Below, in pieces: positions 1,135 through 61,436 of a stretch of 64,000 bases of DNA. Below the pieces are notes generated by a model. That model was given only the letters and a program-made list of their open reading frames with translations. It was not told where the DNA came from and searched no databases. Source of the DNA: Amphirosellinia nigrospora (taxonomy: Eukaryota; Ascomycota; Sordariomycetes; Xylariales; Xylariaceae). The translations under genes were made by a program, and so were the position numbers. Position 1 is the first letter of the stretch. Each line of letters begins with the position of its first letter. Where the stretch lies: positions 4,173,058 through 4,237,057 of the forward strand of contig SCHM01000003.1 of NCBI GenBank assembly GCA_004123355.1. The letters are read 5' to 3'.

Positions 1135-2368
1135 ATGCCCATCTGCATCGAGTGTCGACACCCCGTCCGGACCCTCTGGACCCAGTACTCGGGCGCCGGC
1201 GACGCGAGCTCTAATATCCGCCTCACCGTGTGCCGGAACTGCGGGCGGTTCTGCGACAAGTACGTCGAGCATGACTTTGTCGTGCTGTTCATCGATCTAG
1301 TCTTGATCAAGCCGCAGGTGGGTTCTTCTCCTTTCGCTCCTCTCTTTGTTTGTTCGATGGGGAAAGGAGCGCCTCGGGGACATGGAGGATGCACGCGCGG
1401 GAAAAGGCACGATGAGCGTGGGCAGATAATAGCTGAACTTGAAGAATGAACGAATATCTTTAGATAAATAGCTAACAAATGATCCCATAGGTGTACCGTC
1501 ACCTGCTACATAACACATTAATGCGCGATCGCGATAAATTCGATGTATGTTTCCACAAGTACACCTCTCTTTCGCCGCCGAGTACCCGAACTCGGCCTCC
1601 CCTACTCGAGCAGCGCGAATACAGGATACATAATGTGGAGAGGCTACGAAGCTGAACGACCAAATAACTAATAAATCGTCTTCACAGCCATCCATAATAC
1701 GCCTTGGTACCCTGCTGCTCTTATTCGACGTCTACTTAACTTGGGCGCGTATCGAGAAGCAGGAGTCAGGCGCAGCGTCGGCGGGAGGCAGCAATCTCGG
1801 GGTTCTAGCACGGCAGCCCATCGTGTTCCAATATATATTCTTCCGTACGCAGGCCTCTCATTCCTTATAGAGATCCCCCAGTTCACTAACAGACAAAACA
1901 AACAAACAGTAATCCTCTGCACCTTCTCGACGCTCGCCTTCCACCTCAGCATCCGCTTCCTCACCTCATCCCCGGCATCCCCCTCTCCCTCCTCCGTCTA
2001 CTGCCCACCTACACGCGGCCGAACTCGGTCTCGACGGCGCTCCTCGTGTCCAGCAGTACCAAACTATTCCCCATCCTCATGGTCATCTGGGACTACGACG
2101 TGCCCGCAGCCGCGCGGTCGCTGGGCTGGGCCGTCGTGGCCAACAATGTCGAGGCTCTCGAGATTCTCCTCGACTGTGGCTACGGTGTCGCCGTCGTCCT
2201 CGCCGCTGCTGGAGCTGTCTCTCGCTGGCTCGTCGGCAGGGCCGTTCTTTGGTGTGTCGGCCTCCACGGCGTCGACTCCGCTGATAGCGATGTTGCTGTT
2301 GACGGCCGCGCATTGTGGCACTCCTGGGGCGCGCGGGGGAATGGGGCGGTCGGCTGGCTGTTGGGTGA
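1135..2368 (+). CDS. ARV1: ARV1 family ER lipid/sterol homeostasis protein (four exons, two apparent 1-bp losses)
   Basis: Arv1 proteins are ER membrane proteins needed for sterol distribution and GPI/sphingolipid homeostasis. The first exon opens with the Arv1 homology domain: a zinc-binding Cys pair at residues 4 and 7, and a second CRNCG pair at residues 33 and 36. Exons are 1135-1317, 1491-1544, 1688-1844 and 1910-2368, all with GT-AG introns; the third intron has a CACTAAC branch site. The C-terminal half is hydrophobic with several predicted membrane segments. The frame breaks near 1970-1973 (a C run of four) and near 2319-2321. One added base at each restores a 284-residue protein ending at TGA 2366-2368; as written, the frame runs to another stop at 2522. 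It is convergent with the V-ATPase gene. The family call is firm; the C-terminus depends on the correction. Confidence 0.88.
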
Positions 2369-3099
2369 CATATTCAATACCACTACTACTGTTTGTTTGA
2401 TACTTAGCGAGCGAATTTCGGTTTTTGGTTTCTCGGTGTGGACATCCGTCCGTCTAGGTCTAGAGTTGAGTCACATAAGGTGCGGTCAAATCCTCATTAA
2501 AAGATTCCCATTATACATCTAGATATAGTGAGGAAAGCCTACTTAGCCGAGGCGTATCCTCTTTCTACCCAATCTACTCAGTCATACTGAGGCAGAGCCT
2601 TGTGGTACCATGACCCCCGGCTCTTTCCTCCTGTGATTTCCCTCCGCCCAAAACGCCTGTAGACGACGAGGAAAAGGTAGAAAAAGATATGATGATCATG
2701 ATGCTAGTTTGTCATATTGGTACAAGTCCCGCCTTCCTGAGTTGTCTCTTTCGCTTGTTGATTTCTATATTTGTCCCTGCGAATCTCTTGTTGGCAGTTT
2801 CTGTAGCCCGACCATACTAAATTGCGCGGGGTTCGGAAAACGGAATGGCTCTTGCTCCTATTTCTTTAACAGATTGATAAGCAGACGGCGCGCGTGCGTG
2901 CGTGCGGGTAGGTGGATATTTCGCTTCGTTCGGATCGGGACAGATTGATTAGATAGTGTTGCTGCAGCATCAGAGTCGTTGTGGTGATGATAAATGCAAG
3001 GTATTGTTGTTGTTGTTTGTGTACGGAAGGACGGTTGTTTCGGGGTGTTGTATGTAGATGAGTTTCGTCGTATGTCCGAGAGAGGAACGCCAACGCCCC
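2369..3099. other. Convergent 3' intergenic region
   Basis: This separates the 3' ends of ARV1 (+) and VMA9 (-). It is expected to hold both 3' UTRs and polyadenylation sites. No further gene was recognised; the overlapping open frames look random. Confidence 0.5.
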
Positions 3100-3656
3100 T
3101 TATTCGTGCTCGAAACCCGCCTTGACGTCCGTCCGGCGCGGCTCGATCAGCGGGTGCAGCTGCGCCATGAAGGTGATGAACCACATCAGGTAGCAGCTGA
3201 TGAAGGCGATGATGAGCGACGAGCGCCATGTCCTGTATTTCATTGATGGTTATGTTAGCCTTGTTCTCTCTCGGCCAGATGGTCCCTTTTCTTCTCCCTT
3301 CTTCGTCTCGAGGATAACTGTGACTGCCTCGCTCTTATTTCATTGGCTTCTTTCTTGTTCGCAGTATATAAACCGAGTCCGAAGAATAAGAATAAACGCT
3401 TGCGTGGGTGCGTGGAGAGTGACGGTTACTTACGTCTGGTTCTCGCCCTTCGGTGATAGGAACCATGCGCCGACGCACATGACGGCCACGATGACCAAGC
3501 CGATAAAGACGCTATACCTATATCACAGAGCATAAGATGTCAGTCGGGTGTTAAAAGTATTTCTACTCCCCTCGCTGTCGCATAGCGTCGATGGTGGACA
3601 GCCAATAGGCACCCCAATGAGATTGAATCGACGGGCGTGACGTACCCTTGCGCCAT
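3100..3656 (-). CDS. VMA9: V-type proton ATPase subunit e (three exons)
   Basis: This is the small membrane subunit of the V0 sector, needed for assembly of the vacuolar/Golgi proton pump. Three exons on the minus strand (3646-3656, 3434-3517, 3100-3232) join into 75 residues. The first exon codes only MAQ plus part of a Gly. The protein has two hydrophobic helices separated by the family motif SPKGENQT followed by WRSSL. The second helix ends in the conserved block QLHPLIEPRR, and a short acidic tail follows. All introns are GT-AG (GTACGT, GTAAGT donors) and phases match without correction. Length and motifs match fungal Vma9. The gene is too split to be seen as one open frame, which is why automatic callers may miss it. 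Confidence 0.93.
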
Positions 3657-4086
3657 TGTGATCAACTTTTTGTTGGAGTCGTTTCGGTGCTATAACGTGT
3701 ATCGTTTTACTGAATAAAGCACAGGTGTCGAGGGCGGGATGCGACGATAATGGTGATTGTCGAGCTCGTTATGCCGGATCGAGCTGCCTGGATGGTTGTA
3801 TCTATGGCTCTATGTAGTACGCAGCTTAGCCTCCCGGAGCTCGAGGTATCGGACAGCTACAGATTGCCAAGCCCAGGCTTAGTCATTCCAGTTTCCACCC
3901 TTACCCGGGAGCTACCTACCCTCAGGTTCATGTGACGGATGCCCCTTTCACCAATACTTATAAGCTAACAAAAATTGGTACTTGATTTAGCCTCACTATT
4001 TTAATAATTTACAGTTTTTGTCGTTTAGGTTCATTTCATTGAATTATGAATGGTTACAAGTTACGGACTAGTTACAAATCCTAGGT
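3657..4086. other. Short intergenic spacer
   Basis: This lies between the VMA9 start and the 3' end of the dehydrogenase, both on the minus strand. It must contain the VMA9 promoter. No other feature was seen. Confidence 0.5.
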
Positions 4087-5142
4087 TTAGACATCATTCT
4101 CGAACTTCAATCCGCTCTGCTTCCTCACCGCACCATAGATGCCACCTATGTCCCCTTGTCACCTCCGGCGTGATCAGTTAGGACCTTGAGATACTCGTCA
4201 GCCTCCTTGGCGAGCTTGAGCTCCACGCCGACGCTCTTGCCCAGCGTCATGGCGTGGCCGGCGTCCTTGCGCGCGTTGTCGGCCGAGAAGAGCGGCTCCT
4301 CCATCTGCCAGTACTTGCCCGAAACCATGCGCTCCGCGTAGCCGCTGTATACGCCGCCGAGGAGCAGGTCGACCAGCTTCTGCACCGGCTTGACGCCCAC
4401 CCCCGCCTTCTCGCCCAGCGTGAGCCCCTCGCCGAGCTGCGTCACGAGGTTGATTACGAAGGTGTTGCCTATTAGCTTGAGCTTCAGCGACGACTCGTAC
4501 GGCTTATCGTCGAACGCGATCTCGTCTCGCCCCATCACGCCTGCGATGTAGGGCCGTAGCTTGTCAATTGATGACTTGGGGCCCGCTGGCACGAAGCTAA
4601 GAGTGGAGGTTAGATTGTAGGTTTGCAAAACATTATAGGCTTGCCCTCGGAGAATGTAGAGGAGCACTTACATGAGCGCACCCGCATCAGCCGCGGCAGG
4701 CGCGCCGAAGACGGGGGAGGCGATAAACTCGGCTCCCTTGGCTAGCACGTCTTGCGCGATCTGCTTCGTCGTGTCTGGGTGAATGGTCGAGCAGTCGATG
4801 ATGAGCTTTCCCTTGACGTCGGACTGGAGGATGGTGCCAATGGACTCCTTCACTGCAGCATCGTTGCTAACGATGTTGAAGATGATGTCGGCCTTCTTCA
4901 CGCCCTCGGCGATGCTGTCGACGACCTCGGTTTTGCCGGCAGGTAGGCTCGCCGCCAGATCCTCGGAGCGCTTCTTGGTCCGGTTGAAGAGGATCAGAGG
5001 CTTCTCTAGATTCCCTTTCTCTACCAGGTTCTTACTCATTCCCTGTTTACTACGTTAGTCGATGTCTAAGCGTCGAGGGATTGGGATTCGTGCTCACCCT
5101 GCCCATGTTTCCAAGGCCGATCCACATTAGTTGAGGCGCCAT
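4087..5142 (-). CDS. NAD(P)-dependent 3-hydroxyisobutyrate/6-phosphogluconate dehydrogenase-like protein, C-terminus frameshifted
   Basis: This belongs to the HIBADH (beta-hydroxyacid dehydrogenase) family, which oxidises 3-hydroxyacids with NAD(P); the exact substrate is unknown. Exons are 5098-5142, 4672-5042 and 4087-4596. The N-terminus begins with the Rossmann loop IGLGNMGRG at residues 8-16. The substrate-binding block DCST lies mid-domain, and the helical C-terminal domain carries KLIGN with the probable catalytic Lys near residue 179. As written, the frame stops at 4146-4148 (288 residues). One more C in the 4-C run at 4152-4155 restores a family-like tail (start IGGIYGAV, end KFENDV), a TAA at 4087-4089 and 308 residues. 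It is divergent from the radical-SAM gene. The family is secure; the physiological substrate is not. Confidence 0.88.
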
Positions 5143-5821: not shown

Positions 5822-7134
5822 ATGTCATCAAGTAACGGCATGCAGGCGCTGCTGCTGACTGTCGCGACCCGGGCCCGCAGTGGGAAGGCTCGACTGCTCC
5901 GTCTTTCGCCGAAGTTCGAATACCGGCGGCTCCATCTCGCACCGCCCTTCCTGCTAGATGACTACACCCCTCGTTACCAACTGCTGACAGAAGTCGACGT
6001 GGCGAAGAAACGCTCGCTGGCGTATGCGCATCTGCGGAATTGTAACCTTTGCCCTCGTCTCTGTGGTGTGAACCGGTATGAGACGACGGGCATGTGCCTC
6101 ATCGGTGAGAATGTGAAGGTCAATGTCATCGCGCCACATTTCGGCGAGGGTATGTAGGCTTGCCCCTATCCTATTCCTCCTGTCCGTACCTGGTCTAATA
6201 ACGCAAAATCGTTATTTTGCGTTATGATGGACGGCAACGCCTATGGTACTAGACGCACGTTGTACGAAGATAGATGCAGTCAATTGCATATAAATATAGA
6301 CAAAAATAGATAAATAACTAACGCATACCCTAGAGCCCTGTATCCAAGGCCACAACGGGAGCGGATCTGTTTTCTTCTCAGGGTGCAACTTGCGGTGCAC
6401 ATTCTGCCAGAACTACGACATCGCTCACCAGCGGAACGGGTTCGACCTGACGCCCGAGGCGCTGGGGGCGTGGTACATGAAACTCCAAGAGGTAGGCCGC
6501 GTGCACAACATCAACCTGGTGACGCCCGAGCACGTCGTCCCGCAAGTCGCCCTGTCGATCCTACACGCACGGACGCTGGGACTCCGCGTGCCCATCGTGT
6601 ACAATACCTCTGCCTTTGACTCGCTCGCTTCCCTGGAGCTCCTCGATGGCCTCGTCGACATCTACATGCCGGACTTCAAAGTCTGGACTCGAAAATCGTC
6701 ACAGCGGCTCCTGAAAGCCGACGACTACGCCGCCGCGGCTCGGGAGAGCGTTCGCGCCATGCACGCGCAGGTCGGTGACCTCTGCTTCACGGCCGACGGC
6801 ATCGCGAAGAAGGGGCTTCTCGTCCGCCACCTCGTCATGCCTGGCCAGGAGGACGAGGCGCGAGAGATTGTCAAGTTCATCGCGGACAACGTCTCGCGGG
6901 ATACCTTTGTCAATATCATGGAGCAGTACCGACCGGACGCGCACGTCGGAAGCCAAAGCGGAAGAGAAAGGGACAAGGAGAGGAGGAGGAGAACGCGGGG
7001 GTGGGGATGTGCGTTATGCCGAGATCAACCGCCCTGTCACGGCTGATGAGGTCTCGGCCGTGAGGAAGGCTGCTGAGGCCGTGGGTCTCTGGCGCTTTTG
7101 TGACCCGCCTAGACACGATGGGTTTGCTATTTAG
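5822..7134 (+). CDS. PflX-like radical-SAM iron-sulfur protein (two exons, two apparent 1-bp losses)
   Basis: This resembles the PflX/COG1313 group of radical-SAM proteins, relatives of pyruvate formate-lyase activating enzyme, whose role in fungi is unknown. Exon 1 is 5822-6149 and exon 2 is 6334-7134. The radical-SAM motif CNLRCTFC gives Cys 127, 131 and 134, the ligands of the SAM-binding 4Fe-4S cluster. A separate N-terminal Cys motif (CNLCPRLCG) lies around residues 73-82. The conserved ENIMEQYRP-type segment and a C-terminal EINRPVT block are also present. The frame breaks after HVG (near 6948) and again at the 4-G run 7003-7006. One added base at each gives 376 residues ending at TAG 7132-7134, with a charged low-complexity linker between the breaks. 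The basic N-terminus could be a mitochondrial presequence (inference). The intron is long and carries a hairpin. Confidence 0.85.
6198..6225. repeat. Perfect 12-bp inverted repeat with tetraloop inside an intron
   Basis: The arms ATAACGCAAAAT (6198-6209) and ATTTTGCGTTAT (6214-6225) are exact reverse complements around the loop CGTT. They lie within the 184-base intron (6150-6333) of the radical-SAM gene and would form a stable hairpin in DNA or pre-mRNA. Confidence 0.85.
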
Positions 7135-7902: not shown

Positions 7903-9141
7903 TTAAGCGCCTTGGACCCTGAATGTTCTTCCGCTCGCTGTCTTCCTTTCCTTCTCTTCGTTCTCTGGCCTGGCTCGGCGTAGGACTAGAATATGTTAGA
8001 ACATGTAGAAAGCATCTGTTCGATACAACGTGCTTACCTTGCAGGAAGTCGGCCGTCCGCCTTCTCATACGAGAGTGGATATATGCCTACTCTTTGGTTA
8101 GAGTTGAGCGTTTAAGGATATAGATCACTCATACTTTTGAAGCTTTGATGTGGTAGTGAAAGTAGTCCCTGAAAGTCTGGATATGGGAGATTACGTCGGC
8201 CATCCGCTGGGGGGTCAGGTGACGGGGAAACAGGACTATCCAAGTTAATTGTGCTTCTTTTCAAGCCATGATTTGTAGCGTACCAAAAGTCACATATCCA
8301 ATTTCTCCGCCAGATGTTTCTTTCACGCCAGGAACTCCCTGCAATTCCAGAGGTGGGTCGTTTCTGAAGAGCACCTGTGGCGCATTCTGGATTGCTCTTC
8401 TCCGGGCGTCGACGAATTCTTGGATGAAGACCTTTCCAAATACCCTGTCGGTTTCCTCGCGAAATATAGTGCTGAAGATAACTGTCACTCGGTCGTGGCT
8501 CGCCTTGACATAAATGGCTTCCTCGTCACGGTAGTGGATTGCCATAACCTCGCCGCCTTCTCGCACGCCCTGCGGGGCCTCTTCGCTTGTGTATTTGGAA
8601 GCAGCCTCCTTCAACTTGTAATACTCGGCGTAGGCATGCTCGAACGGGGCGGCCATAGCATTGCGCTTTAGCAGGGATATCTTCTTGATCAATTCGTCGC
8701 GTTCCTCTGGATAACACCATCAGCACCCACACCCACACCCATAATGCCAGAGCCGATAGATGATCTCACCTTTGTCGGCGGGCAAGTTCTCGAGGTCTAC
8801 GAGAACAGAGAAGTCGTAGCCAGTCTCGGGGATACGACATATTGACCGTATTCGCGCTGTAGGACATCCTGGGCACCATACTTGACCAGCTCCTTGAAGC
8901 ACCGGATCTGAAGCGATACTAGGATCTGGGTCTTCGTTTCGGGAGTAGAGATGTGGAAGGTGACGCCATCGAAGTCGGACACGGTCTGGTCGATGTGGGC
9001 TGGCGGTGCTCTGCACACACGGCTTGAGTTAGGCTGGCTGGCTGGCTGAGTGACGATGGATTGGTGCGTCTAGGCTTACCCAGAGAATCTCTCTGTCAAG
9101 ACCGACTGTATCAGAACATTCTGGTAGTCTAAGAGTAGCAT
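7903..9141 (-). CDS. ARPC2: Arp2/3 complex subunit 2 (ARPC2, p34; six exons, one apparent 1-bp loss)
   Basis: This is a core scaffold subunit of the Arp2/3 complex, which nucleates branched actin filaments at endocytic patches. Exons on the minus strand are 9080-9141, 8770-9010, 8284-8706, 8135-8235, 8038-8086 and 7903-7985. It starts MLLLDYQN, as the family does. The conserved C-terminal stretch FHYHIKASK, then AYIHSRMRRRTADFLQ, is split over exons 4 and 5, and the last exon ends with RPENEEKERKTASGRTF. A G run at 8828-8831 is one base short, breaking the frame after QYVVSP. With it restored, the protein has 319 residues, the usual length. An apparent stop at 8129-8131 is only read if the GTATGA donor of intron 4 is missed. 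Its start lies 379 bases from that of UTP12, on the other strand. Confidence 0.93.
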
Positions 9142-9520: not shown

Positions 9521-12489
9521 ATGGTCAAGTCTTATTTGTAAGGCATAACTGCTGTCGCGTATTTCTTGGGCACCCATTTGACTAACCTGTCTAATTCGCA
9601 CGTAGAAAATATGAGCATGCGAAATCCTTTGGCCTCGTAACGTCCGGCACCTCTAACATCCTCTGGACCTCGAAAGATGGCACCAGCACCAGTGCCGGCC
9701 AGGCCATTGTCGCCGCCAACGAGGAGGTCATCAGCTGGGATATCAAGACGGGCGACATACTGAACCGGTGGCGGGATTCGGCTTGTGCCGCCCAGGTCAC
9801 CGCAATTGCACAGAGCAAGATCGACAAGGACGTCTTCGCTGTGGGATACGAGGATGGAAGCATTCGGTTATGGGACAAGTACGGAACCGTCGTCGTAAAC
9901 TTTAACGGCCACCGATCCGCCATTACGACGCTTGCTTTCGATCGGTCCGGGGTGCGACTAGCGAGTGGCTCCAAAGACACGAATGTCATTGTCTGGGATC
10001 TGGTGGCCGAGGTTGGGCAATATAAGCTTCGGGGCATAAGGACCAGATTACGGGCTGCAGTTTGTTGAGCCGCAAGAGGAGGTTGCCGAGGAAGACGGTG
10101 CGCAGGCCATGGTTCTCGATGGCACGGCAGACGCATCCGAAGGGTTTCTGCTAACCACCAGCAAGGATTCGCTAATAAAACTTTGGGACCTGGGTTCGAG
10201 ACACTGCATTGAGACGCACATTGCTCAGACAAATGGCGAATGCTGGGCATTGGGCCTTTCCCCTGACTACAGCGGCTGCATTACAGCAGGACATGCTGGG
10301 GAGTTAAAGGTGTGGGCACTTGATGCGGCCTCTCTTGCTTCATCTCGTCATCAAGTCGATATACCGGCAAATATGCAATACCTACACGACAGGGGGACCT
10401 TGTTTCGCCAAGGAAAGGACAAGGCTATCGAGATAATATTCCATCCTCGCTTGGACTACTTTGCCGTACACGGCTCAGAAAAGGCTATAGAGATATGGAG
10501 GATACGATCAGAGGCGGAAATAAAAAAGAGCATGGCACGGAAGAGGAGAAGGAGGCGAGAAAAGCTTGCGCAAAAGAAGGGAAGTCAGATGGACGACGAT
10601 GCACAGATCGAGGAGGTGGAAGAACAAGAGGAAAATGTCAGCAAGGCCGATATAACGGACGCATTTGCACAACATTTGATAATCCGTACAGGGGCAAAGC
10701 TCGCTCTATCGACTGGGCTGATATCACAGGCAAAAAAAGGTTACAACTGCTTGTTGCTACGACTAACAACCAGCTGGAGTTATTTCAAATCCCTTTGAAG
10801 CAAAAGAGCTCGAAATCAAAAGATCAAGATGTCCCAGACTACGAAAGAGCACTCGCTGTCGAGATTCCTGGGCACCGGGCAGACATTCGGTCATTGGCTC
10901 TCAGCTCCGACGATAGACTCCTTGCCTCTGCATCGAACGGGTCCCTAAAAATCTGGTCGCTGTTAACCCAGAAATGTGGCAAGACTTTGGAGTGCGGGTA
11001 CGCCTTATGCTGTGCATTCTTACCGGGTGACAAATTGGTTGTCATCGGCACAAAAAGTGGCGAGATTGAATTGTTTGAAGTGTCGACTGGTACACTCTCG
11101 ATAGCGTAACAGCCCATGAAGGTGCAATCTGGTCTCTCCAGGTCCATCCTGATGGTAGGTCAGTTGTGTCGGGAGCGCCGACAAATCGGCCAAATTCTGG
11201 AAGATTCAGGTTGTTCAAGAGCCGGTCTTGGGAACAGCTCGAACAACGCAACGCCTTAAGTTGTCGCACACGAGGACACTAAAAGTCTCTGATGACATCC
11301 TTAGCCTGAAATTTTCGCCGGATGCGAGATACTTGGCCGTTGCCCTGTTGGACAGCACGGTAAAAGTATTTTTCACCGACTCGCTGAATTATATTTGAAC
11401 CTTTACGGCCACAAGCTACCTGTCCTAGATATGGACATTTCGTACGACGGGAAGTTAATAGTAACATGCTCAGCAGACAAGACAGTGAGGATATGGGGCA
11501 TGGATTTTGGAGACTGTCACAAAGCAATAATAGCACATCAAGACAGTATTCTGCAAGCCAAGTTCGTGCCGAACAACCGCGAAGGCAATGGCCACCACTT
11601 CTTTACCGCCGGTAAAGATCGCACCGTCAAGTACTGGGACGGTGACAAATTCGAGCAGATCCAACGTCTGCACGGCCATCACGGCGAGATCTGGGCACTA
11701 GCTATCAGTCGTAGCACCGAGCCACCCTTCATCGTCAGCGCTAGTCACGATAAAAGCATACGGGTGTGGCACGAGACAGACGAGCAGATCTTCCTTGAAG
11801 AGGAGAGGGAGAAGGAGATTGAAGAGCTCTACGAGAGCACATTGACCGGTTCGCTCGAGCAAGACGCCGACGAGGAAGGCCAGGAGGGTGAGATCGCGGC
11901 TGCTACTAAACAAACGTCAGAGACGCTGAACTACGGTGAGCGTATCGCGGAGGCGTTGGAGCTCGGTATGGCAGACTTGCACGTCGTGAAGGAGTGGGAG
12001 GAGGCCAAAGCAGTCAATCCTCACATCGGGATACCTCAGCGTGACCCGATGTTCTTGGCACACGGGAACATCTCCGCCGAGGAATACGTGATGAAAGTGC
12101 TGTCGCGGCCCGCAGCTTCAGCGCTGAACGACGCACTGCTCGTACTGCCATTCGCCTCCGTGCCGATCCTCTTCACATTCCTCAACATCTTTGCTATGCG
12201 ATCGATGAACATCCCGTTGACGTGTCGGATCCTCTTCTTCATGCTGAAGACGCACCACCGCCAGATCGTGGCCAGTCGGACGATGCGCGGCATGCTAGAC
12301 GGCATACGAACGAACCTACGGCGGGTGCTCAAGACGAAGAAGGATGAGATGGGCTACAACATCGCCGCGCTCAAAGTTGCGGGCCTGCAGATCCAGGAGA
12401 ACAGCGTCAAGGACTACGTCGATGAGAACTGGGACGACGGCACCGACAACCAGAACGTCAGGAAACGGGCATTTGTGCATGTCGCTTGA
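9521..12489 (+). CDS. UTP12: U3 snoRNP WD40 protein UTP12/DIP2, SSU processome (two exons, six apparent 1-bp losses)
   Basis: Utp12/Dip2 is a tandem beta-propeller subunit of the UTP-B module in the SSU processome, required for 18S rRNA maturation in the nucleolus. Exon 1 (9521-9537) codes MVKSY and two bases of Leu, followed by a GTAAGG...CGTAG intron; exon 2 is 9606-12489. WD repeats recur throughout (GYEDGSIRLWD, KDSLIKLWDLGS, ADKTVRIWGMDFGD, HDKSIRVWHETDEQIF). The C-terminal Utp12 domain follows, with RNIPLTCRILFFMLKTHH-like helices. The frame breaks near 10035, 10055, 10691-10694, 11095-11099, 11171-11173 and 11394-11396. In each case one extra base in a short run restores the expected WD sequence. 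The corrected total is 968 residues, close to the yeast protein. The gene is essential in yeast, so decay at all six sites is unlikely. Confidence 0.93.
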
Positions 12490-13530: not shown

Positions 13531-15807
13531 CTAATGAGCCAGTAGGTGGGATGAGAATCGAAGACCAGGATGTATCTGCGGTAATCCTGATGGATGCTCG
13601 TTGCCCTGCATTCCCGTCATCTCATTGGTCGCAATGGATCTGCTGAAGAAGGTCTCGTCGGGAAAGGGAACCACCATCTGTGGCTGAGTTTGATAACTTG
13701 CGTTATCAAATATCGACCTCGTCGCGCCCCAGATTGGTTGGAAGTTGTTTGATGGAGTATCATTCCAGAAATGCTGTTCGGGGCTATTTGTTAGTGATCG
13801 TCGGTTACTCAAATCCATCCCATCACCTGCATATTCAACAGGGGAGCGGGAGCGGGAACTTCTGGAGGAACGGACCGAAGTCTGTGGTGCGCCATTTGAC
13901 GGTGTGCCTCCAAATTCACTCGGGCGAGTCGATGGGGGCTCACCCGTAGACGATGACGAGTTCTCCGACGGCGATCGTATTCGATGGGGGGTGAACGACG
14001 TTCAAGACCCGCACCCCATGGCACTATTCGCACGCCGTGGGCATGGTTGCTCTCGAACCTCCTACTACCAGGCGGCGACTGGTTACTCGAGCTTATGTTT
14101 GAGAGTTGACTTTGTAGTGAATTAGTGGAATGAACCCATACTAGTAATCACGTCGTGCTGCTTACCTAGAGGAACGTTCTGTGGTGTTGTTAGCCATGGG
14201 GTGCCCGGGCTGCATTGGTGATTCTATATCCACTGCGTCGCGATCGCGAGACTGGTTTGGGTCAAGCCCCTGATAACCAGGCAAATGCTGCGCTGTTATA
14301 GGGTATGGGGGTATGAACCGGAAGCCTGGATAGTTCCGACGTGATGGTATTTGCTGGGGTTCCGAGTGAACCTTATCCCGACAGTAGGGGCAACTATCTG
14401 ACTCTTGGAACCATTTCTTGATGCAATGGTCACCAAACACATGCTTACACTTGGGTAGTCTAAGCGGCGCCTCGTTGATACCCTCAGGATTTGCTACACC
14501 AAATTCATTGTAACATATCACGCATGCTATGCAAGTTAGCGTCAAGCTAGGCGATGGTACGCGAAGACTTACTTCTCTCGCTTTCCGGTAGGTCCGCTAC
14601 ATTGACGCTTTGTAAGGACGCCAGAGCCTTTTTAGAAGCTACTCTCTTCCCCGAACAATGACCTCTCAGGAGTCGGCCGCTCATCGCGCCCTCCCCATCG
14701 GGAATCGCACCTGGAAAGCTGTCGGTAAACTCCATCAAACTTATATCACGTCGAAACGAAGCTGCATGATCACCTAGCCATTCCGATTGTGTGGCATTGT
14801 ATCGCTGCATGTTTCTCCTAACTCGACCTATCGCAGCGGTGGAAGCTCGCCGTATTTCGACTGGGTTGGTCATGCGGCCAGGTTGGTCGTTAGTGCCATG
14901 CGGTGCGGCTGATGCTGGTCCCGAAGGAGAGTGCGAGGCTGTGGTTAGTAGCATATGTTAGATCGACCTTACACACTAGACGAGACACGAAGAATAGCTT
15001 ACTTGGTCGGGAACTACCATCTACAACCGGGCCCGTAACTTGCGTTATGGGCTCGGGTGTTTGCTGAGAAAGTGGCGCAGGAGGGCTTTGTGGTGTGAAC
15101 ATCTGAGGAAGATTGGGTAATTGTTGGCCAGGATGTCTGTTTTCGTTGTTGAAGGGTGTCTGACCTATCTGTTGTATTGGGTTGTGAGAGGGTCTCGAAG
15201 CAGGATTGTGCAAAGGAGGGGCAGAATGCATTGAGCCTGAGGCAGATAGACTAGCATAGCCAGCGTTTGCTCTGTGAACGGGCCGGTTTGAGGGGTGTTG
15301 GGTATTGGCTTGGCTTGAATTCAAACTCCCAAATCCTTGATAAGCCTGACCGAAAAGCCGAGGTGCTGGGTGCATTGCAGGCCGAAATTGCTGTTGCTGT
15401 TGTATCGCAGCAATCTGTGGTGAAAAGGGCTCTGAAACGTTGGGTGTGTTTGTGTTAGTTGGCATTGGACAAAGCGGTGGCTGTGGCTGGACTGGTTGGT
15501 TTGATGTCGTTGGACCAGAAAATGTGCCCGTCACGAAAGGGTCCTGCGTGTAAGGCGATATCCTTGCCGACTGCCAGTTCTGCGGGCTCCTTGACTGCCA
15601 TATATTCCGGTGGGCTGTGTCATATGGCACAGCGCCTCGAGATGGTGAGATGGCAGGGTGCTGGTAACTGCCATGTTCCGTCGCTGCTCGGAACGCAGGG
15701 CAGCGGGCTGCTGAGGCGGAAGACGAAGCACCGCTTGATTGCTCATAATGAGGGTGGTGGTGGTGAGTAGAGTGGCGCACTGTAAAATCCATACCAGAGG
15801 GATCCAT
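13531..15807 (-). CDS. Long RING-finger E3 ubiquitin ligase-like protein (four exons, one apparent 1-bp loss)
   Basis: This is a predicted RING-type ubiquitin ligase with unknown substrates. Exons are 15003-15807, 14573-14938, 14166-14526 and 13531-14109, with canonical introns (one has CTACTAACCACAG). The first 270 residues are low-complexity, rich in Gln, Asn, Pro, Ser and His, with His and Gln runs. The RING spans residues 392-439: CVIC, then CKHVFGDHC, then CPYC. The region after the RING is Arg/Ser/Pro-rich and disordered. A GGG run at 13943-13945 (minus-strand sense) is one base short; with it restored, the protein is 703 residues ending at 13531. I chose the ATG at 15807 (MDPSGMDF) over an upstream in-frame ATG at 15873, which lies next to a CA/CT repeat typical of leaders. 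The family call is good; the role is unknown. Confidence 0.82.
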
Positions 15808-46734: not shown

Positions 46735-46776
46735 GGCACAAACCAGGCACAAACCAGGCACAAACCAGGCACAAGG
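46735..46776. repeat. 11-bp tandem repeat (GGCACAAACCA)
   Basis: Three exact copies and a partial fourth of GGCACAAACCA follow directly on one another. Confidence 0.9.
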
Positions 46777-48649: not shown

Positions 48650-51389
48650 GTGGCTAAGAACATGGCGGCCGTAGATACGAAATGGAATACACGGAGGCGA
48701 CGTGCCGTCCAGGCTGTCTTCCCAACCGACAGCTTCTCACAGCCAACACCCCACTCAACACCCTCGGCAACACCCTCAGCAACACCCTCGGCACACTTCA
48801 CGGACCAGGGCCGGCCCTTTGGGGGGGCCTTAGCACAGGTGCAGACGCAACAGCCACTAACACCCCGCAAGTGGGCTGTTCCTAGTGTTGGTGAGATATC
48901 ATCTCTGCCTTGGTCGGCCTCGCCAGAAAATACCCACGCCTCTCACCAAACCCGCTTCGACCGCGCCTGGCACACAGTCACCGCACGAATCTCTCTGCCG
49001 CCTTCGGTTTCGGCAGAGGACTCATTCGGATCGCTTCCCAACCCGCAGGATTTGGATGGCGGTGGTTTTGAAGACGCCCTGCTTGACGTTCTGGATCCCG
49101 CTTTACGCCTGCCCCTGGCCAGGCACACCGAGGATGTTTTAGCTTGGCACACGCAGCAGGTACGGCAGCATTATGTTAGCCATGTACATCCCCTGTTGGC
49201 TGTGTGTGACGGCTATGAAGACCAGACACAAGTTCTGCTGGGCAGTGTTCGGACCCTGGAAGCGGCACACCGCCAGTATCTGTATGGCTTGTCGTTAATC
49301 ATGCGGCCCATGGCCCCAGACCAGGCAGACATGGCGCTTAAAAACTTCCACCGAGATCTACATGCCGTTGTGGGAAATTCCATGTCCAGTGCTCTAGTAT
49401 CTGCCTTGCGGTCTGTTCTCGGTCACATGATGAAGACCGTCCTAGGGATAAACTCTACAAACTCTACGAATCTGAGTGGGAAGAAGCTTAAACAGCCCCC
49501 AGCCGACGTGGACCACACCAGAGAAGAATTGATTCAGTTAATCGACTCGCTTTGCAAAGTTGGATTGGCTGGCGAGCGATTCCAGATCTTGTTCGCTGAG
49601 CTTCTGGATGGCATGATGATCATGTATGTGCAAGAGTCGTTTTGCGGGGACTGGGGCTCAACAGACCAAGATGTCCCCATGCTGGATTCACTTACTGGCC
49701 AAAACCAGTCAGCTCAGCCTCATTGTATACTGCAACTATCGGACTGGGTAGAAAACCATTATGCTCGCCTAGCCGTAGAAGTTACTACTAGGCTCGAGGT
49801 TGTAGAAGTTTCCTGGACTGATGTAGAGAGGTGGAAGGAGACGGCCGTTGGTAGGTTGGCCACACTTCGTATCAATGAACTGTTTGACATAGCAGTCAAT
49901 TGGCCGAACAGTGGGGGGGATTGAGGATCTCCGTTTCGCTGTCACCACCCCTCAGCGGAGACTACAACTTACCGACGCATTCTCTGCAGCCTTACAGAAC
50001 CGCTTACTTCACCCAGGTCGCTCGACTCTAGAGATTTTACGTACTTATATTGCGATGATCAGGACATTTCACAGGTTGGACCACTCCCGCGTTCTACTCG
50101 ACCGCGTAGCCTACTCCTTACAACTTTACCTTTGCACACGCGAGGATACAGTGCGTATCATTGTCTCTGGTTTACTATCCACACCTAAGGAAGTAGACTC
50201 GGAAGTTCGTAAAACAAAGCTGGTCGAACTCGTCGAGCTGCTTTATGACCCTAATCAATATCGCTCGGAGCGTCAGGATGAAGAATGGGACGATCTCACC
50301 TGGGTTCCGCCACCGGTAGATGCAGGCTCTAACTATAAACGCCGCAAATCGGAGGATGTTATCGGGACTCTAATCGGCGCACTAGGTTCCCCTGAAGTAT
50401 TCATCAAGGAGTTCCAAAACATTATTGGCCACCGATTACTATCAGAGCAGTCTTCTTTCGAGCAAGAGATTGGCGTGCTTGACCTCTTGAAGAAACGATT
50501 CGGTGAATCGTCTTTACAGGCCTGCGATGTAATGATTAAGGACATCCAGGATTCACGAAGGCTTGATGGTGCCATCCACCGCGGCGTTCTCAATCAGGTT
50601 GAGCAGATATCACGAATCCAGAATATTCACGCGAAGATTCTCTCCCGACTTTATTGGCCAGAGGTGGGCGAAGAGGATTTTGACCTACCTTCTACAGTTG
50701 CCACAATGCAGAAGACATACGGGTCTATATTTGAGCACCTTAAACCGTCACGTAAGCTCAAGTGGCTCAACCATCTCGGACAGGCTACTGTGGAACTTGA
50801 GTTTGAGGATCGCACTCTTATCGAGGAGGTGCGCACCTATGAAGCAGCTGTCATCAATGCCTTTAGCGAGGAGAATGCATCTAGCTGGACATTTGATGAG
50901 CTTTGGATGAAAATGCAAATTGATGAAGATCTTCTCACGGCCGCACTTCAATTCTGGGAGAAAAAACAAGTGCTACGTAAACAGCACGACGGTCGCTACG
51001 TTGTCATTGAGAGGCTTTCAGATGCCACCCAATCATCTTCAGCGGAACAATTTGGTTCGGCCGCACTGTCATCTGCTCCTGCAAATACTGTTCAAATGAG
51101 CCCCCGTAAGACTAAGCCTGGCATGAGTGAGAAAGAAAAGGAGAAACGCGCAGTATACTGGCAGTTTATCGTGGGCATGTTGACCAATTCCAGCCCTGTC
51201 ATGCCCCTTAATAACATTGCCATGATGATGAAAATGCTTATCCCAGATGGTTTCCCCTGGAGCAATGAGGAGTTACAAGAATTTCTCGCCGAGAAGCTTG
51301 GCGAAGGGGAGCTGGAACTCGTTGGGGGCAAATATAAGCTTATCAAGAATGAAAACAGAGGTGGCCGTGTCGTATTTTGGAGTTGCTGA
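48650..51389 (+). CDS. APC2: Anaphase-promoting complex subunit 2 (cullin-like), one frameshift in a poly-G run
   Basis: APC2 is the cullin-type scaffold of the APC/C ubiquitin ligase, which pairs with the RING subunit APC11 to trigger anaphase and mitotic exit. The gene is intron-free. The N-terminus has an Arg-rich start (TRRRRAVQAVFP) and Ser/Thr/Pro repeats. The middle is helical cullin-repeat sequence. The C-terminal half contains the cullin homology region (DVMIKDIQDSRRLD, then LSRLYWP and KTYGSIFEHLKPSRKLKWL) and ends in the APC2 winged-helix domain (VGMLTNSSPVMPL to the C-terminus, residues about 850-910). The frame changes at a 7-G run, 49913-49919: six Gs (or nine) would join the halves WPNS-GG and IEDLRFAV, giving about 912 residues. 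An in-frame ATG at 48662 is an equally possible start. Confidence 0.92.
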
Positions 51390-52439: not shown

Positions 52440-55400
52440 TCAAGCACCGTTTCTCATCGTTGAAAACAATTCGGACTCTCTCAAAACTTCCGTCGGGGTT
52501 CCAAAGTGCGCCACTCTGCCGTTCTCAAGCACGACGATACGATCGTATTCTAGCGCCGTCTCGAGACGGTGAAGTACGGATATGATGGTCTTGCCCTGCA
52601 ACTTATCTACTATGAGGTCCATGATCTTCTTTTCCGTCGCCACATCGATGCTAGCAACTCGTTAGCGGGTGATATCGTACTTGGTAACGGGGACGGATTC
52701 TTCTCACCTGCTCGTCGCTTCATCAAGCAAAATAACGCCCCCTGCTCGTCCGCCCGCTTGGAGGATGGTCCGCGCGAGCACGAATAGCTGCGCTTCGCCC
52801 ACGGAAAAGTTGGCGCCGCTCAACATGCCGCCGAGTCCGCCTACGGCCGTGACGTTGTCCATGATGGCGCACTCCCGGAGGACGTGTTCGATAGCATCAT
52901 CTGTGAATGCATTGTCCGGGTCTAAAGCCTCGCGCACGCTCTCGCCTTGCATGAAGGTATCTTGGGAGATGGCGTGGAACCGAGATCGAAGCAATGACTG
53001 AGGGACGCGCGAGATATCCACGTCGTCGAGAAGAATCCTGCCCTTGGGGCAATCGATGAGGGCTAGGAGAGAGAGAAGCAGGGTCGACTTCCCCGAGCCG
53101 CTCCTCCCGCAGATCGCTACCCGCTCGCCGGCGTTTATGTGTAAGCAGATGTCATGTAGACTCCATACGGGGTCTTCTGAAGCAGGCCCGCTGCTATTAT
53201 AGCTGGCGTGCAGGTTCTCGAACTTGAGCTCCCCCCTCTCGGGCCACTTGGCGGATACCTCGACGGGCGAAGAGACTTTCGTCTCCGCTGGCGTATCTCG
53301 TTCGAAGGCTTCTATCCTCGCGATGGCGCCGAGGGAAATCTCCAGAGACGTCCATGAGCTGATGAGGTTGGTTAGCCCTGTGCCTAGCGTTACTAGATTT
53401 AGGAAGGCAACGCCAATCGCTCCTCCGCTGGTGCTGTGTCTCGTGGCTACTGCCACCCCTACGACGACGACTGATAAACCGGCTACTAGGAAGGACATGA
53501 CGAGCCTTAGCCAGGCCTGCACGACGAGAAGCAGAAAGTCCGGCTCCTGAGTTCTGTCGACACACTCCCGGAGCTCGCCGAGCATCATGCCCTGCCAGCC
53601 GTGGGTTCTGATTGTAGCGAGGCCGGCGTATGTTTCCGACGCCTTGGCTTGCAATCCTGCCTTTGACTGTAGGTCCATCTGTCGGAGCTGCTTAGATGTT
53701 CGGAGGTAGACGTGCTGTATGAGGAATAGTGCGAGGAACACGACGGGAAGCGCTGCCAGAACATAGATGGCTGCGATGGCGATCAAGATGGTCTGAGCGA
53801 TGATGTCAAGTAGCCCTGACACCGTGTTTAACAGATCAAAAGGCAGTCTGATATCGACCATGAGAAGGTCCTGGTTGAATCTATTGATCAGGTCGCCAGT
53901 ATCGATTGCGCTGATAGTCACAAATGTGGCGTCTATCACTGTCTTGAGCAGTTTCCTGTGCAGTGCTATGCCGGACTTTGGGATCACGGCTAGAACCAAA
54001 TGGGCGCCCCAGGAAGCAAGCGTGAGCAGTGGCAGCACGCTTAGGAAAGCATAAAGACCTATCCAGTACCCTGTCGGGTGCTTTCGCGTCAGGGGATGAG
54101 ATTCATCTGCGGTCCACCATTCTATCCAGACGGCTGTGACAGGAGATCAGTATAACATGGAACAGTTATGGACTGTGGTGCGTTACAAACCAGGAAATCT
54201 CTGAGTAAAAGCAAAGGCCACGCCGAACGCGAGGAATATGCTCAAATGTGCCCGCCCTATAGAACCGAAATAAGTGCGATAGACTTGACGATCTGTTATC
54301 TTCAAGGCTTGAGACGTCTTAGATTTCTTTTCAGCTTTGTTCAGCGGTTGAAACTATCACTCGACACGTCGGGTTCTTGAGCTTCGATAGAGCCCGGTAA
54401 TTGATCTTCCCTGGAGCCAAAGTCTGGAAATTTGTGTGGAACCAAGTTTCCGTTCTCGATCTTGAGGACACTGTCGGCGAATTGAGCGGATTGATCTACG
54501 AGTATTATGTCAGTACATACACGCTAAACGTCTACAAGGGCGAAAGTACAATCTTGAGTAACCTGTATAACGGCAGTGCCTTGCTTCGCAAGAAGGCCAT
54601 TTACCCCAAAGAGATTCTCGAGGATATGTTTCTTAGTGGTCTTATCAACCGCGCTGAGAACATCATCCAGAAGTATGACTGATGGACGAAGAGCGACAGC
54701 CCGAGCTAAAGCCTAGAATTCAATGCGTTAATCTTAACTCGGAGTGCCCCTGGCTTCGTGTTGGACTGGAACCTGACTTACTAGGCGCTGTCTTTCGCCA
54801 CCACTGATTTTTGCGCCGTTGCTGCCGATAGTTTCATCTGTGCTTTTCGCCTCGAGTAGCTGTCGTAGAGCACATGCCTCGATGACCTTTTCTTGCCAAG
54901 CAACATCGTTTGGAGCTCCTCTGACGGCATTTTCACGGACGGTCACGTTTTCCAGCCATGGTGTCTGACCGCAATACGCAATGCGGTCGTCTCCGGTCCT
55001 GATTTTCCCGAGAGTGCTTGTATCTCGCCGATAATTGCTTGGAGCAAGAGCGATTTCCCACTGCCAACCGCCCCGGTGATGACGATATGTTCTCCTTTAC
55101 TGATACTAAGGTTCACGTCCTTAACGAGGACTTTATCATCCCAGCCGAAACAGCCATCAGTAATCTCAATGATGGGTTTGGGTTTTCTGAGCTGTGAGTC
55201 AGAGTCGTCTTTCTCGGTCGTCTCAATCATCTTGGCATCAAACTGATCTTGGGCGTCGTCATAATTGGATGAGTGGTGCGGACGCTCTCTCGAGTCAAAT
55301 AGCTCTTCACCTTGAAGAAAGTCTTGGATGCGGCTACAACACCCAAGCGCTGCCCCTATCTGAGTGAACGTCTGCAGTAGAACTACGAGAGGGTTCGCAG

Positions 55401-57280
55401 TAAGGTTGATCAATATGAGCGAGCTAAAGAGCCGGCTCGAGTTCAGATCCTGGTGCTGCGAAGCAGTAGCCCCTATGTAAGCACCGAAAACGACGACCGG
55501 CGACAAAGTCAGGGTTGCGAATGCTGCATCACAGATCAATTAAGACTTCGATGATCACTAGAGCTTGTATGCCTGATCCACTCACACGAGAATAGGCCGC
55601 CGACCAGTAGCTTGCGCAATTTCTTAGACGATTCGAATTCTAGGCTTCGTAGTTTTTTGATAGCAGCAGCCGCTCTCTCATCCGCACCTGTCATCTTGAT
55701 GGCCTTCAATGATGAGAGCATGTGCTTCGTCCCTGAATCCGCCTTTCGATGGCTGCCTGCCAAATCCTCTGCTGAACTGCCGTTCGCTTCCCAATGAAGA
55801 TAGAGGCAACTACACAGACTGAGAGTAGAGCAGGTCAGCCTCCTGCACTCCGATAGATGTGGCATTTACTCACTCAACACGATTCCGAGTGCGGCCAAGC
55901 TTGCAGGCCCTACCTGCCGCCATAGTAGCCATGTGCTGATCGCCGTTTCGATTGGGGCGATCCAAAACTCGTGCACAACCCTGAGAGCAACAATAATACG
56001 CTGCAGATCACTAATCATCAGGGTAAGGACCTTCGACTCGATGCCTTTCTCTTGTTTGACCTTGAGCATTTTATGGCTGAGGGCCATTATAATCCCACCT
56101 CTGACTTTGGCCGTCAATTTAGAATTCAAGTAGTAGTACCACCCAGTGCAGACCTTGAGACGCGTTAACGACGGATAATGAGGTTAGCAGTCCAGCTAGC
56201 TTACCGCAATCCCAGTATACACGAGGAACGACGCTCCAATCAGCCCATATCCGTCATTGTCAGAAGTGTTTTGGCTCTCGTCGAGATAATTGATGAGCGA
56301 AGACGCTAAAAATGGTTGTGCGAATGTGAATGCACTCAGGGCAAGCCGAGGGAGGGCGGGCGCTAAAGCATATAGCCCCAAGGACTGAAAAGTCAGTCGA
56401 ATAAGTCCGTAGCGTCCAACTGCAAATCCATCAGTATTTATCAGCGTCAGGGGATAGAGGCAAAAAAAGGGCATCCTCGGTTACATTTCTTGGCGGTTAG
56501 AAGTCGACCGAATCTCGGCTCGACCTCTGTTGTTTTTAAGCCTCTGTCTATGATCCGAAGATCAGAGTTCGTTAATTGTTGTCGGTACCCCTTGAAAAAC
56601 AGGCTATTGACCCAGGCAAGTAGACTCCGGCTGAGAAAGCTCGAGCTCTCTTCAGGAGTGCCTCCAAGGCTACCATCAACAAGCCACCGGCGCTTGCTAC
56701 AGCTCTCGAGTGCGAGGAGACTAAGCTGGACGAGGAGCGAAGCGAGACTTAAGGAGGCTATGGTATGAAACCCATCAAGATACCAGTACGTGCGCACTAC
56801 CGCAGCTCGTAGGAGAGGCGTAAGGACAAGGTAGATCCCTAGGATATCTGATGTTCGAACAGAGCGTACATGCTCAATATGCGACAAGACGAGCAACGCT
56901 ACAGAGGCAACGAAGCATAGTGCAGCTGTGGCAATACTGATCGATGTATGGCGTCTAGAACCAACGCATGTGAGTATCAATATGGCCAACTCAAGAGCGG
57001 TGAAGAGCCCGGCTATAGCCTGCGACGTGTGAGTAAAGAATTCATGCCCTATCTATTCTACCAAGATTCTTACGGTTTTGGTAAAGTACAATAAGCCGAG
57101 GCGAGCCTTGGGCGAATTTCTCGCAAGTACTACGATACGACCGACGGCGACAGTGAGGAAAAGGATCGAAGGGAGTAATTTGAAAAAAAGTTCCTCGAAG
57201 AAGAGGGTGAAGTCAAACACCCGGCGACACTCTGTGACCGCAGGCCCGAACGACTTTTCGGCCTCAAAAGTGCAGTCCAT
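52440..57280 (-). CDS. ABCC/MRP-type ABC transporter (nine exons, three apparent 1-bp losses, one in-frame TAG)
   Basis: This is a full-length ABCC-type exporter with TMD0/TMD1-NBD1-TMD2-NBD2 order, expected in the plasma or vacuolar membrane. Exons run 57074-57280, 56485-57013, 56205-56419, 55874-56153, 55586-55818, 54782-55523, 54191-54712, 52708-54133 and 52440-52650. The N-terminus has the family CR-x-FDFTLFFEE block. NBD1 has Walker A GAVGSGKS (near 55055-55078), signature ISGGERQR and Walker B VILLDDVLSAVD. NBD2 has Walker A GRSGSGKS, a variant signature FSVGEAQL and Walker B ILLDEATSS. One-base losses appear at 55731-55733, 55003-55006 and near 54345. Corrected length is 1455 residues, normal for the family. 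A TAG at 54524-54526, just after NBD1, remains in frame and is not cured by a single base. The substrate cannot be predicted. Confidence 0.88.
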
Positions 57281-60200
57281 TGAGGGACGACAGAGGAGGC
57301 ATCAATATTAATTCCGGGTACTGAGTAAAATCAAACATCAATTCATTTCACTGCACTTTGAATAGGATATCAAGCTGCCTTAATATTCAATGCTGTTGCC
57401 TGTTATCATTATTTTCGTTTGTACCACCCCTATACGTATACAACTTCAAGGTAGGTATCTACTTAAGTAGGTACTTCCCTCCCAAAGAGCGGTTACCAAC
57501 CCGAGAGTATTCACTTATCGGATTAGTATAATCGGCTGAAAGGGCCCCTATTAGCCCTAAAAGGAAGGTGAATATTTACCCCATGTACAATTAGAGTTAG
57601 CAACGACTTTTGATTAGCTGCTTTCCGACGTTAGCAAGAGCGGGCAGCTGCGTATGATTTATTTATTAAAAGGGACTTGGCAGAACCGAAATAGAGGTGA
57701 ACGAGGAAGCTTGGCACCAAGAGGCACACCAAGCATCGGTCACGATCGAATAGCCCGAACAGCAACGGTTTTGCAGCTCATCCTGGTGGAGCAGAGAGCT
57801 CCTCGAAGCTATCGGCCGAAATGAAAACCAATTGCGCAGCTCTACTTGTTTGATACGATGAAAAGCTATCGGGCATGAAACGATAGGAGACCACATCCCC
57901 ATTTTGACACGTATTCGTATTCGTCACTCCAAACCTGTATACGGCTTCCGGGTGTGCACATCCACGCGTGGTTGGACATGTACACCTCAGGGTTTCGCAT
58001 GAGAATCTAATGCGCAATAACGCTTCCCTCGTGCCGCTTGTTGGGTGCTGGCGCTTGTCCGAGATGCGGAGGCTTGCGAAATCCGGCTCAGGATATGGTG
58101 AATCCCTCGTTGATATATTTAAAAGTCGTTGGCAAGGTTGCAGAAGGAGAATACCGAGTTATACTGCTCGCAGGACCAAGAAACCCTATCAATGCAGTCC
58201 AAATACGAATGCGAAAGTGAAATGTTCCAAACAAGCGGGGGGTTCGGTGATGAGAGTTTTATTCGTATGAACGTTAAGCTTATGAGACAACCTGCTAATG
58301 GCTTTCTAGCATTAGGAAAAGCCGTTAAGCGAGTTCGTAGCGAGTTCGTAGACGAGTACGATGAGTGAGTGTATGATGATAGCTGCCAGACGTGGAATCT
58401 CCTCAGCTCGTCATTGAGCATTAGGTTGGCCTTATTGATATTGTCATGTAGTGATTATCATATCTCCACGCTTCTGATGTAAACGTCTCGACCTGACAAT
58501 TCTTGATGGATGCTCTGCACTTGTGAGCGTTGTATGTCGCAGTAACTGGTGAATTTGGTAGTCACTTAACCGTCGACAACCTCGTTAGAGGTACTCCCTC
58601 GAGGGAATCACCCAATAAATGATCTTCTATATATTAGATCGTATATGCACGTAACATAGCACGTGACAGAGCTCGCTACCTGAATTCTTCTTCTTTCAAC
58701 CTTGTAAGCAACATACCAACCAAAGCGGGGATAGGAGAGAACGTAATTTACCAAAAGTGATCATGGCCGACCTCCTGCCCACCCAGTATGAAGACGATAT
58801 GGCTAAGAGTACCGTCTCACTTTATCGATCTTCGTCGACTACTTCTAACGACATGAAGATTCATGCCTGCCAAGAATAGGGGGCACAAGTACTTGGGAAA
58901 TCTAAGGGGATTCCGAGACTATAAGTTAGGTACTTTCCGACATCACTTATTTCTCGAATGACACTTGAATCTCAGCTCTCACATATCGATAAGTTGTTAA
59001 GTAGTTACATAGTCACCGGCTCGTCTGGCATACGCAAACCGAACATCTACATGGCACACATTATTTTGTCAGCTTATGGATGTATGCAATGTTAGGCTTA
59101 TAGCTTACCTGTAGCCCATAATAGTCCAGGGCCCGTTGTGATAGGCTGCCCACTTGCCTCTATGTTCCCGTGACCTGTGGGCTAGTCTCTAGTTTCTCTC
59201 CGAGATTTTAGAACCCAGCCTCATCTCCGCATTTTTAGGGCAGTGAGTGGGCACTACAACGCTAACCAAACGTTGGATGCCGAAGCAGGGTATTTGTCAA
59301 TATCTTAAAATCGACGCCCACCTGCAACGATCTTTTCAACAGAGTTAGTTAGTTCCTTGCACCGAATCCCTTGGCAGGGAACTAGAATACAGTACTTATT
59401 TGATGGTTGAAGTTCTTGTCCACATCTAGACTCGTTCGAGTTCGACAGTGTGTTGCGAGTATGAATCTCTTGTATGAACTATACAGAAGGCTGCTCGGTC
59501 CTGTAATAAAGTGCTTTCCGTAAGTACCTACAAGTAATGCCCTGTTTTCTTCCGGGTGTAAGCTAACTCTAACTCGTGCGTACCTGAGATCACTTCCTTA
59601 GTATCACTTTAGTGCTGCTTTACCCCCTCTCTCCCGTAATCGGAGGCCCTCATGACAAGCAGCGAAAACTTCTTACCCCGTCCTCACCTACTTCACTGAG
59701 ATTCTACTTCCCTTCTCCTTATCTAGAGATACAAGCGCGAGCACAGAACACGTTTGAATTGTGACCCAGATATAGAGAAGGGCTCTATCTCGCGTAATTT
59801 CGTCGTAGGTTAACGTATAAAAAGAATTTGGAGTATGAAAGGCAGGAATTCTTGTACAATAACCTTGTCTCGGATTCAGGCCCAACTCTATCTGTCATCC
59901 TAAAAGACCTGTTAGGTAAATATATACAAAGGTTCGGGAACCTAATCACCTGAAGAGAGGTTAGTCATTCGCTCAATAAATAGGGTTGCTTGCTTTCTGG
60001 AGGTATTACTTCTAGATTTTGACAACAAGGCCTCCTCTTAACTGATTTCTTACTGATTCTGTTGATTTGCCTTTTTTCGTAGGAGACATCTACAAGGATA
60101 TTGTAGAACTATTGGGTGTTAATAGAAAACTTAGAAGCATGTAAGCAAGATGCCCTGTCATAGACAGGCAAAAGTTGCTGAGGCTGAGGAGTCGTGCGGA

Positions 60201-60484
60201 GGGAACATCACGTTTGTCTAATCCTCATCAGCCACAAGATTCAGGAGCATGGAGGCAGCTCTCAAAATGACACGCCAGATTTCCTTGCAGAGTCATCTGC
60301 CGCATAGGTTATCAGTTTGTATATTAGACACCGAATATACCATGTTCAAACGCTAGGTATGGAGTATGTAGTCCAAGCTTCTGGTGTCCACATACTGCAT
60401 AAGGCAAAGACAGCCACGTGCGTTTCTTCTAATCCCCCATTGGTCTAGACGTTGAAGATTTTTCTTGACGAATGTATTGGGTTG
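57281..60484. other. Gene-poor region between ABC transporter and unassigned gene
   Basis: Part of the first few hundred bases should be the ABC promoter; a TAGGTAGGTATCTACTTAAGTAGGTAC segment lies near 57450-57475. A possible secreted-protein exon is listed separately (57778-58017). A 38-codon frame with a good ATG context at 58763-58879 (MADLLPTQYEDD) may be a stray first exon. The rest shows nothing recognisable. Confidence 0.45.
57778..58017 (-). CDS. Possible exon of a small Cys-containing protein
   Basis: This 79-codon frame has a plausible protein-like composition: several Cys in the first third (CETLRCTCPTTRGC), then SYRFMPDSFSSY and a hydrophobic QLVFISADSF segment. An AG acceptor-like site sits just upstream of the Cys-rich part, so it could be a terminal exon whose signal-peptide exon I could not find. 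It may equally be chance. Confidence 0.25.
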   Translation of the reverse strand: MRIRFSCETLRCTCPTTRGCAHPEAVYRFGVTNTNTCQNGDVVSYRFMPDSFSSYQTSRAAQLVFISADSFEELSAPPG

Positions 60485-61436
60485 CTAATTGATGAGGACG
60501 TTTTTGAAACGTCTGTAATGCCTTAGAAGGATCCTTTCCCCGTACTCCTCGCCTAGACTCAACGAAACGCAGTTTCAAAATTCGAAGTGATAATTTGCAG
60601 TCATGATGTGCCTCCGCAGGGCAATTGGCAGATCGGAGTTCACCTACCATACAGCTCCCGGTATGGTGCTAATTGCTTTTCACCACAGATCCTGCTAATC
60701 TCTGCACTGGCTTTCTGGTACTCGGAATCCACTGCAACATTTTGATCAATAATCACTGCTTAGGCAAGGTGTTTGAGTGCTTCAGGAATGATGATAGTTG
60801 TAGTGACTTACAAGTTCGGAGAGCCTTATCCCGGCCCTTGCCATCTATGCCATATGCCCTCACGGCCTCATCTACGGCGTATTGAAATGCTTGTTCCACT
60901 ATTAACACCAGCATCAGCAACAAGTTTTGAAGAACACCTTTGTAGATCTGAAGCAGCTTTAATTTCTTAGCGGTGAATACACTGGGGTCAGTTTCAAAAT
61001 TTTGCATGTTGTCACCGTTACGTAATGTAACAATAAAAGGGTCAAATCTTACTCTGAGCTTTTATCGTGAGACGTGCTTCGTCAAACAGCAATGCCATGT
61101 TATAATCCGTCAATGTTTGTTTAATGTGATCGGCCAGGCGAATTTCGGAGTCGTATAAAGTACAGAACTTGCATTTGCCATCCAATGTATTTTTGTTGGG
61201 CGAGTTGTACTTGGAGTAGGCTGGATTAAAGATGCTAAAGATGGGGGTTGTGGGACTGGCGGCGAGCGGCGGGAGCTAGATTGATCATTGAGACCACTCT
61301 CGATAGTAAGTTTACCACAAAAAGATTGACCAGGCTTGCAAGATGAGCATCGAGTTATGAGATCGTTTAGATGCGTTCCAACAGTGCCGTCCTCCCAACC
61401 GCTCTGTCGTGCATGGTTGCAGCCATGAGAAGTCAT
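60485..61436 (-). CDS. Unassigned multi-exon protein with Cys-pair motifs
   Basis: I do not recognise this family. Four exons are supported on the minus strand: 61053-61436, 60812-60981, 60648-60731 and 60485-60552, the last three with matching phases. The N-terminal part has Cys pairs (ITRCSSCKPGQSFCG and KCKFC) that could form a zinc site, followed by helical sequence DHIKQTLTDYNMALLFDEARL. The second exon is strongly helical (KLLQIYKGVLQNLLLMLVL) and may include a membrane or amphipathic helix. The tail is charged (EEYGERILLRHYRRFKNV). A T run at 61190-61194 (A run in coding sense) is one base short, and the phase between exons 1 and 2 needs one more base. The start is uncertain: another in-frame ATG lies at 61460, and coding-like sequence extends further up. 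Confidence 0.55.

Follow-up and report, generated by a model that had tools for sequence, protein, structure and literature searches.

In nanopore reads deletions are the commonest error, and homopolymers of C and G are read worse than those of A and T. In the part of that study on which we draw, the harmful words lying outside runs are mainly composed of C and G, and runs below five nucleotides are mostly well read (PMC8486125). A fungal genome with breaks of this kind has been described in Drechmeria coniospora, where, in the portion of the report that deals with nanopore-only assemblies, conserved genes are frame-broken by wrong homopolymer lengths and were corrected by short reads (PMC7500977).

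We have analyzed a stretch of 64,000 nucleotides (the window, positions 4173058–4237057) of an assembly of Amphirosellinia nigrospora that comprises 48,114,038 bases in 11 contigs. Separate open pieces were matched to Pfam, and the three frames of the unaltered sequence were read in each gene region concerned. This locates 13 frame breaks across seven gene regions, 12 of which are minus one, with the remaining one, in APC2, being either +1 or –2. The breaks are truly present in the assembled sequence. Judging from that sequence alone, we consider that they arose at the base level in a long-read assembly and are absent from the organism itself, with a probability of around 0.93. The initial annotation had claimed about 18 breaks, all of them cured by the addition of one base. 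Twelve minus-one breaks are indeed seen, in the ARV1-like gene, the dehydrogenase, the PflX-like gene, ARPC2, UTP12 and the first nucleotide-binding domain of the ABC transporter, and the claim that one added base cures them all is slightly too strong.

The ARV1-like gene (1135–2300, plus strand, with an approximate 3′ end) has three exons or more and is recognised by PF04161 in pieces covering positions 1–55, 69–129 and 152–202. Its one minus-one break lies close to a region with many C runs at about 1966–1995. An NAD-dependent dehydrogenase of the 3-hydroxyisobutyrate dehydrogenase type (4100–5142, minus strand, both ends approximate; PF03446 and PF14833) has a single minus-one break close to its C-terminal end. 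The 3′ part of a PflX-like radical-SAM gene lies at 6318–7134 on the plus strand (PF04055), with two minus-one breaks, both in the final third. The presence of such an enzyme gene in a fungus is an observation in its own right. ARPC2, the p34 subunit of the Arp2/3 complex (8030–8950, minus strand, ends approximate), is matched by PF04045 in pieces 1–30, 31–51 and 52–184 and by the PDB chain 3dwl_D, and has one minus-one break close to the N-terminal end. There is a one-base overlap between the pieces 1–30 and 31–51, the second of which is a weak match (E 0.13).

UTP12 (9595–12489, plus strand) has six minus-one breaks. It is matched by pieces of PF25173, PF25172 and PF04003, and its best PDB match is 5oql_I, a chain that we take to be from Chaetomium thermophilum. 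This match, the shortness of the introns and the content of genes all indicate a filamentous ascomycete. Three of the breaks are tight junctions between pieces of PF25172 lying in different frames (1–71/72–112, 72–112/97–167 and 97–167/161–293); each is one base short, and there is no room for introns at these junctions. The three further breaks emerge from three-frame reading, two of them at a site whose profile positions had suggested an intron. A RING-finger piece of the RING gene is matched by PF13639 at 14165–14596 on the minus strand. APC2 (48551–51389, plus strand) is matched by PF25773, with positions 8–34 and 37–111 in different frames, and by the PDB chain 5g04_N; a PDB search using the first APC2 piece gave no match. 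Its single break coincides with seven consecutive G at about 49905–49925, and was absent from the earlier list. In the ABC transporter (52443–57301, minus strand, ends approximate) the first nucleotide-binding domain is split over two frames, with PF00005 pieces 1–41 and 54–117, and this first domain has one minus-one break.

Where in the sequence do the breaks fall? A G/C run of at least four is found in 7 of the 13 break intervals of the window where 1.23 would be expected (P 0.0002), and a run of at least three in 9 of the 13 compared with 5.4 expected (P 0.04); these P values are generous because the intervals were drawn after the sequence had been seen. An A/T run of at least four is found in none of the 13 intervals, with 1.35 expected. 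Run lengths were also counted in 311,352 bases, comprising the window and 77 loci of which a few overlap. The chance of a G/C run continuing is 0.22 at length four, 0.18 at five and 0.09 at six; for A/T runs the corresponding values are 0.29, 0.34 and 0.50. Judged within this genome alone, long G/C runs are scarce beyond a length of five, and A/T runs are not, extending up to 12 in the sample. These observations bear upon the idea of a mutator lineage lacking mismatch repair, the genes of which are truly losing homopolymer bases. Fungal mismatch-repair mutators have been described in the parts of the literature on which we draw (PMC5614558, PMC5449657, PMC6528967), and a preference of the losses for runs is what a mutator would give. 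Yet A/T runs should then also be hit; they are not short in this sample, and none of the 13 breaks in the window is at an A/T run of at least four. Such a lineage would also have had to lose essential genes. We therefore regard a mutator as very improbable.

How widespread are the breaks in the genome? The initial annotation had proposed counting indels in universal genes. Five families were searched in the same genome: CCT/HSP60-like chaperonins, HSP70, the proteasome, the actin family and class I tRNA synthetases. Omitting isolated weak rows (2 of 20 for HSP70 and 4 of 25 for actin), the matches form 45 gene groups with 57 junctions. By a loose criterion 23 junctions are out of phase, 16 by minus one and seven by plus one. 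The tight set comprises 16 junctions where the pieces touch or slightly overlap, with an excess of no more than four bases; the seven looser junctions excluded from it, in which the gap was wide, the overlap long or the excess greater, are three of minus one and four of plus one. The 16 tight breaks occur in 13 of the 45 groups, and 13 of them shift the phase by minus one (the excess being –4 in one case), two by minus two and one by plus one. In a two-sided sign test the losses are 15 of 16 (0.0005) if minus two is taken as a loss, and 13 of 16 (0.02) if it is taken as a gain. The affected groups are 5 of 10 for CCT-like, 4 of 8 for HSP70, 2 of 14 for the proteasome, 2 of 7 for the actin family and none of the 6 tRNA synthetases, and many other housekeeping groups give long unbroken matches. 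The breaks that this count revealed in genes for CCT, HSP70, the proteasome and the actin family are thus mostly one-sided. The claim that the direction is that of loss holds for 12 of the 13 breaks in the window and for 13 of the 16 tight breaks genome-wide, or 15 if minus two is taken as a loss, with one tight plus-one break as an exception. That break, the one with the excess of –4, and the ratio of 16 to 7 that results when the looser junctions are added all count against assembly error as the source.

A cell needs its chaperonin, HSP70, proteasome and actin-family genes. To find them frame-broken would be unexpected in a living cell, and this is one of our reasons for favoring an artefact. 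True pseudogenes, disabled in the living fungus through decay or because they lie in a dying or duplicated region, would leave breaks in the sequence as given, and such breaks do exist. However, the breaks extend beyond the window to housekeeping genes spread over several contigs, essential genes among them. Decay would call for genes that are dispensable or backed by an intact copy, and it is housekeeping genes that are hit. Second copies were sought with two queries, ARPC2 and the C-terminal domain of Utp12. The latter has three matches in the genome, one of which is the gene in the window. An intact second copy elsewhere had been named in the initial annotation as counting against its reading; ARPC2 was looked up in the whole genome and has a single match, with no second. 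In addition, most of the breaks are losses of one base and the intervening pieces still match their profiles strongly, unlike those of decayed genes. Pseudogenes are thus a very unlikely explanation.

The genome-wide break windows were set by the ends of the profile matches, and were compared with random draws. A G/C run of at least four is present in 5 of the 16 tight windows (random mean 1.38, P 0.004), and one of at least five in 3 of the 16, compared with 0.19, a number reached in none of 5000 draws. Runs of at least three are not enriched in these windows (8 of 16 compared with 6.17, P 0.23). As to the proposal that the breaks usually lie in a G/C run, runs of four or more are enriched at the breaks, both in the window and across the genome, but eight windows of 16 contain no run of three, so some losses fall outside G/C runs of at least three. 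The tight breaks amount to some 0.34 per kb (16 over roughly 47 kb covered by the matches, with overlaps counted twice), a rate that is likely to be too low because one junction in UTP12 resembling an intron held two losses. By extrapolation, at 0.34 per kb the whole genome would carry some 16 000 such errors.

Untranslated sequence provides a further view. Scans of the window for Rfam families and for tRNA genes gave no match. Elsewhere in the genome, 5S rRNA genes are scattered singly and fall into more than one sequence class, with 17 of 30 copies differing by no more than five substitutions from the consensus and the rest by 6 to 23. The best 30 of the 33 matches listed were aligned, with the majority consensus as reference. 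These 30 copies contain 21 one-base losses, 18 of which are at G or C, and four longer losses, with no one-base gain and one gain of two bases. Of the 17 near-identical copies, eight carry a total of nine one-base losses, each within a G/C run of three to five, and there is no gain; at the C run there may be natural variation, because the consensus simply follows the majority and forms with four C score as well as those with five, and this tells somewhat against an artefact at that site.

The losses in 5S genes are important for two further explanations. In the first, many genes would rely on programmed minus-one ribosomal frameshifting, which would agree with the mostly one-sided sign and the preference for runs. 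But the 5S genes are not translated and carry the same losses, six events would be needed in UTP12 and, by eye, the contexts of the breaks share no motif beyond G/C runs. Frameshifting on this scale is exceedingly unlikely. In the second, the missing bases would be put back into the transcripts by insertion editing. This would account for one-sided losses in both coding and structural RNA genes. However, we know of no such insertion editing in fungal nuclear genes, and it leaves unexplained why run length is the sole difference between near-identical 5S copies; editing is hardly credible as the cause.

At 255–401 the window carries a dispersed SINE-like repeat, about 146 bases long. It has at least 40 further genomic matches, the majority of them with 86–96% identity. 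Its subfamilies differ by losses of four to six bases and by an 11-base gain. We used 28 copies of the repeat as a non-coding control. Here the loss bias is not found: there are three one-base losses, all of them outside G/C runs of at least three, and gains of one base (two) and of two bases (three), four of these five lying at a single G run in one subfamily. This counts against assembly error as the origin of the losses. So does the behaviour of the tRNA genes, where 37 of 47 loci fall into clusters of like copies, almost every one of them the same, and the genes contain two one-base gaps; this sample is biased towards intact genes because the loci were chosen as the best scoring.

Taken together, the mostly one-sided breaks in housekeeping genes, the enrichment of G/C runs of at least four at the breaks, the scarcity of long G/C runs, the loss bias in the 5S genes, the single ARPC2 match and the similar bias of published nanopore data support the deletion-biased long-read error proposed at the outset. 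A long-read assembly would have dropped single bases, for the most part in G/C runs but also in other words rich in G/C, and any gene holding such a site would then appear frame-broken, with the genes presumably intact in the living strain. The technology was most likely nanopore, most likely without effective short-read correction. Nanopore is favored because the part of the D. coniospora report considered here regards PacBio-only fungal assemblies as free of such breaks (PMC7500977); low-coverage PacBio might nevertheless have been the source. An artefact of this type is ordinary and understood in kind. Were the losses instead real in the strain, it would carry many thousands of them, each of one base and most within G/C runs, some rRNA genes included, and these would have to be tolerated by slippage in transcription or translation, or by a second nucleus or allele hidden from the assembly. 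If true this would overturn what is known of fungal gene expression; it has little support, and we give it almost no credence. If the breaks are indeed assembly errors, gene models, pseudogene counts and selection tests derived from this assembly would be wrong, and our results serve as a warning against annotating it as it stands.

How does the locus compare with the described systems? The profile of nanopore reads is like that found here, being dominated by deletions with G/C homopolymers the worst affected. The parts of that study considered here concern reads of bacteria and human, and not a consensus, and short runs are mostly fine there whereas they are hit here; that half of our tight windows have no G/C run of at least three, when runs below five are mostly read well in those data, is a point against the artefact (PMC8486125). 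So is the outcome of polishing in D. coniospora, after which, in the portion of the report on which we draw, over-long runs were commoner than short ones; here losses prevail, in an assembly whose technology we infer (PMC7500977). The D. coniospora case is like the present one in being a fungus with chromosome-scale contigs in which conserved genes are frame-broken (PMC7500977).
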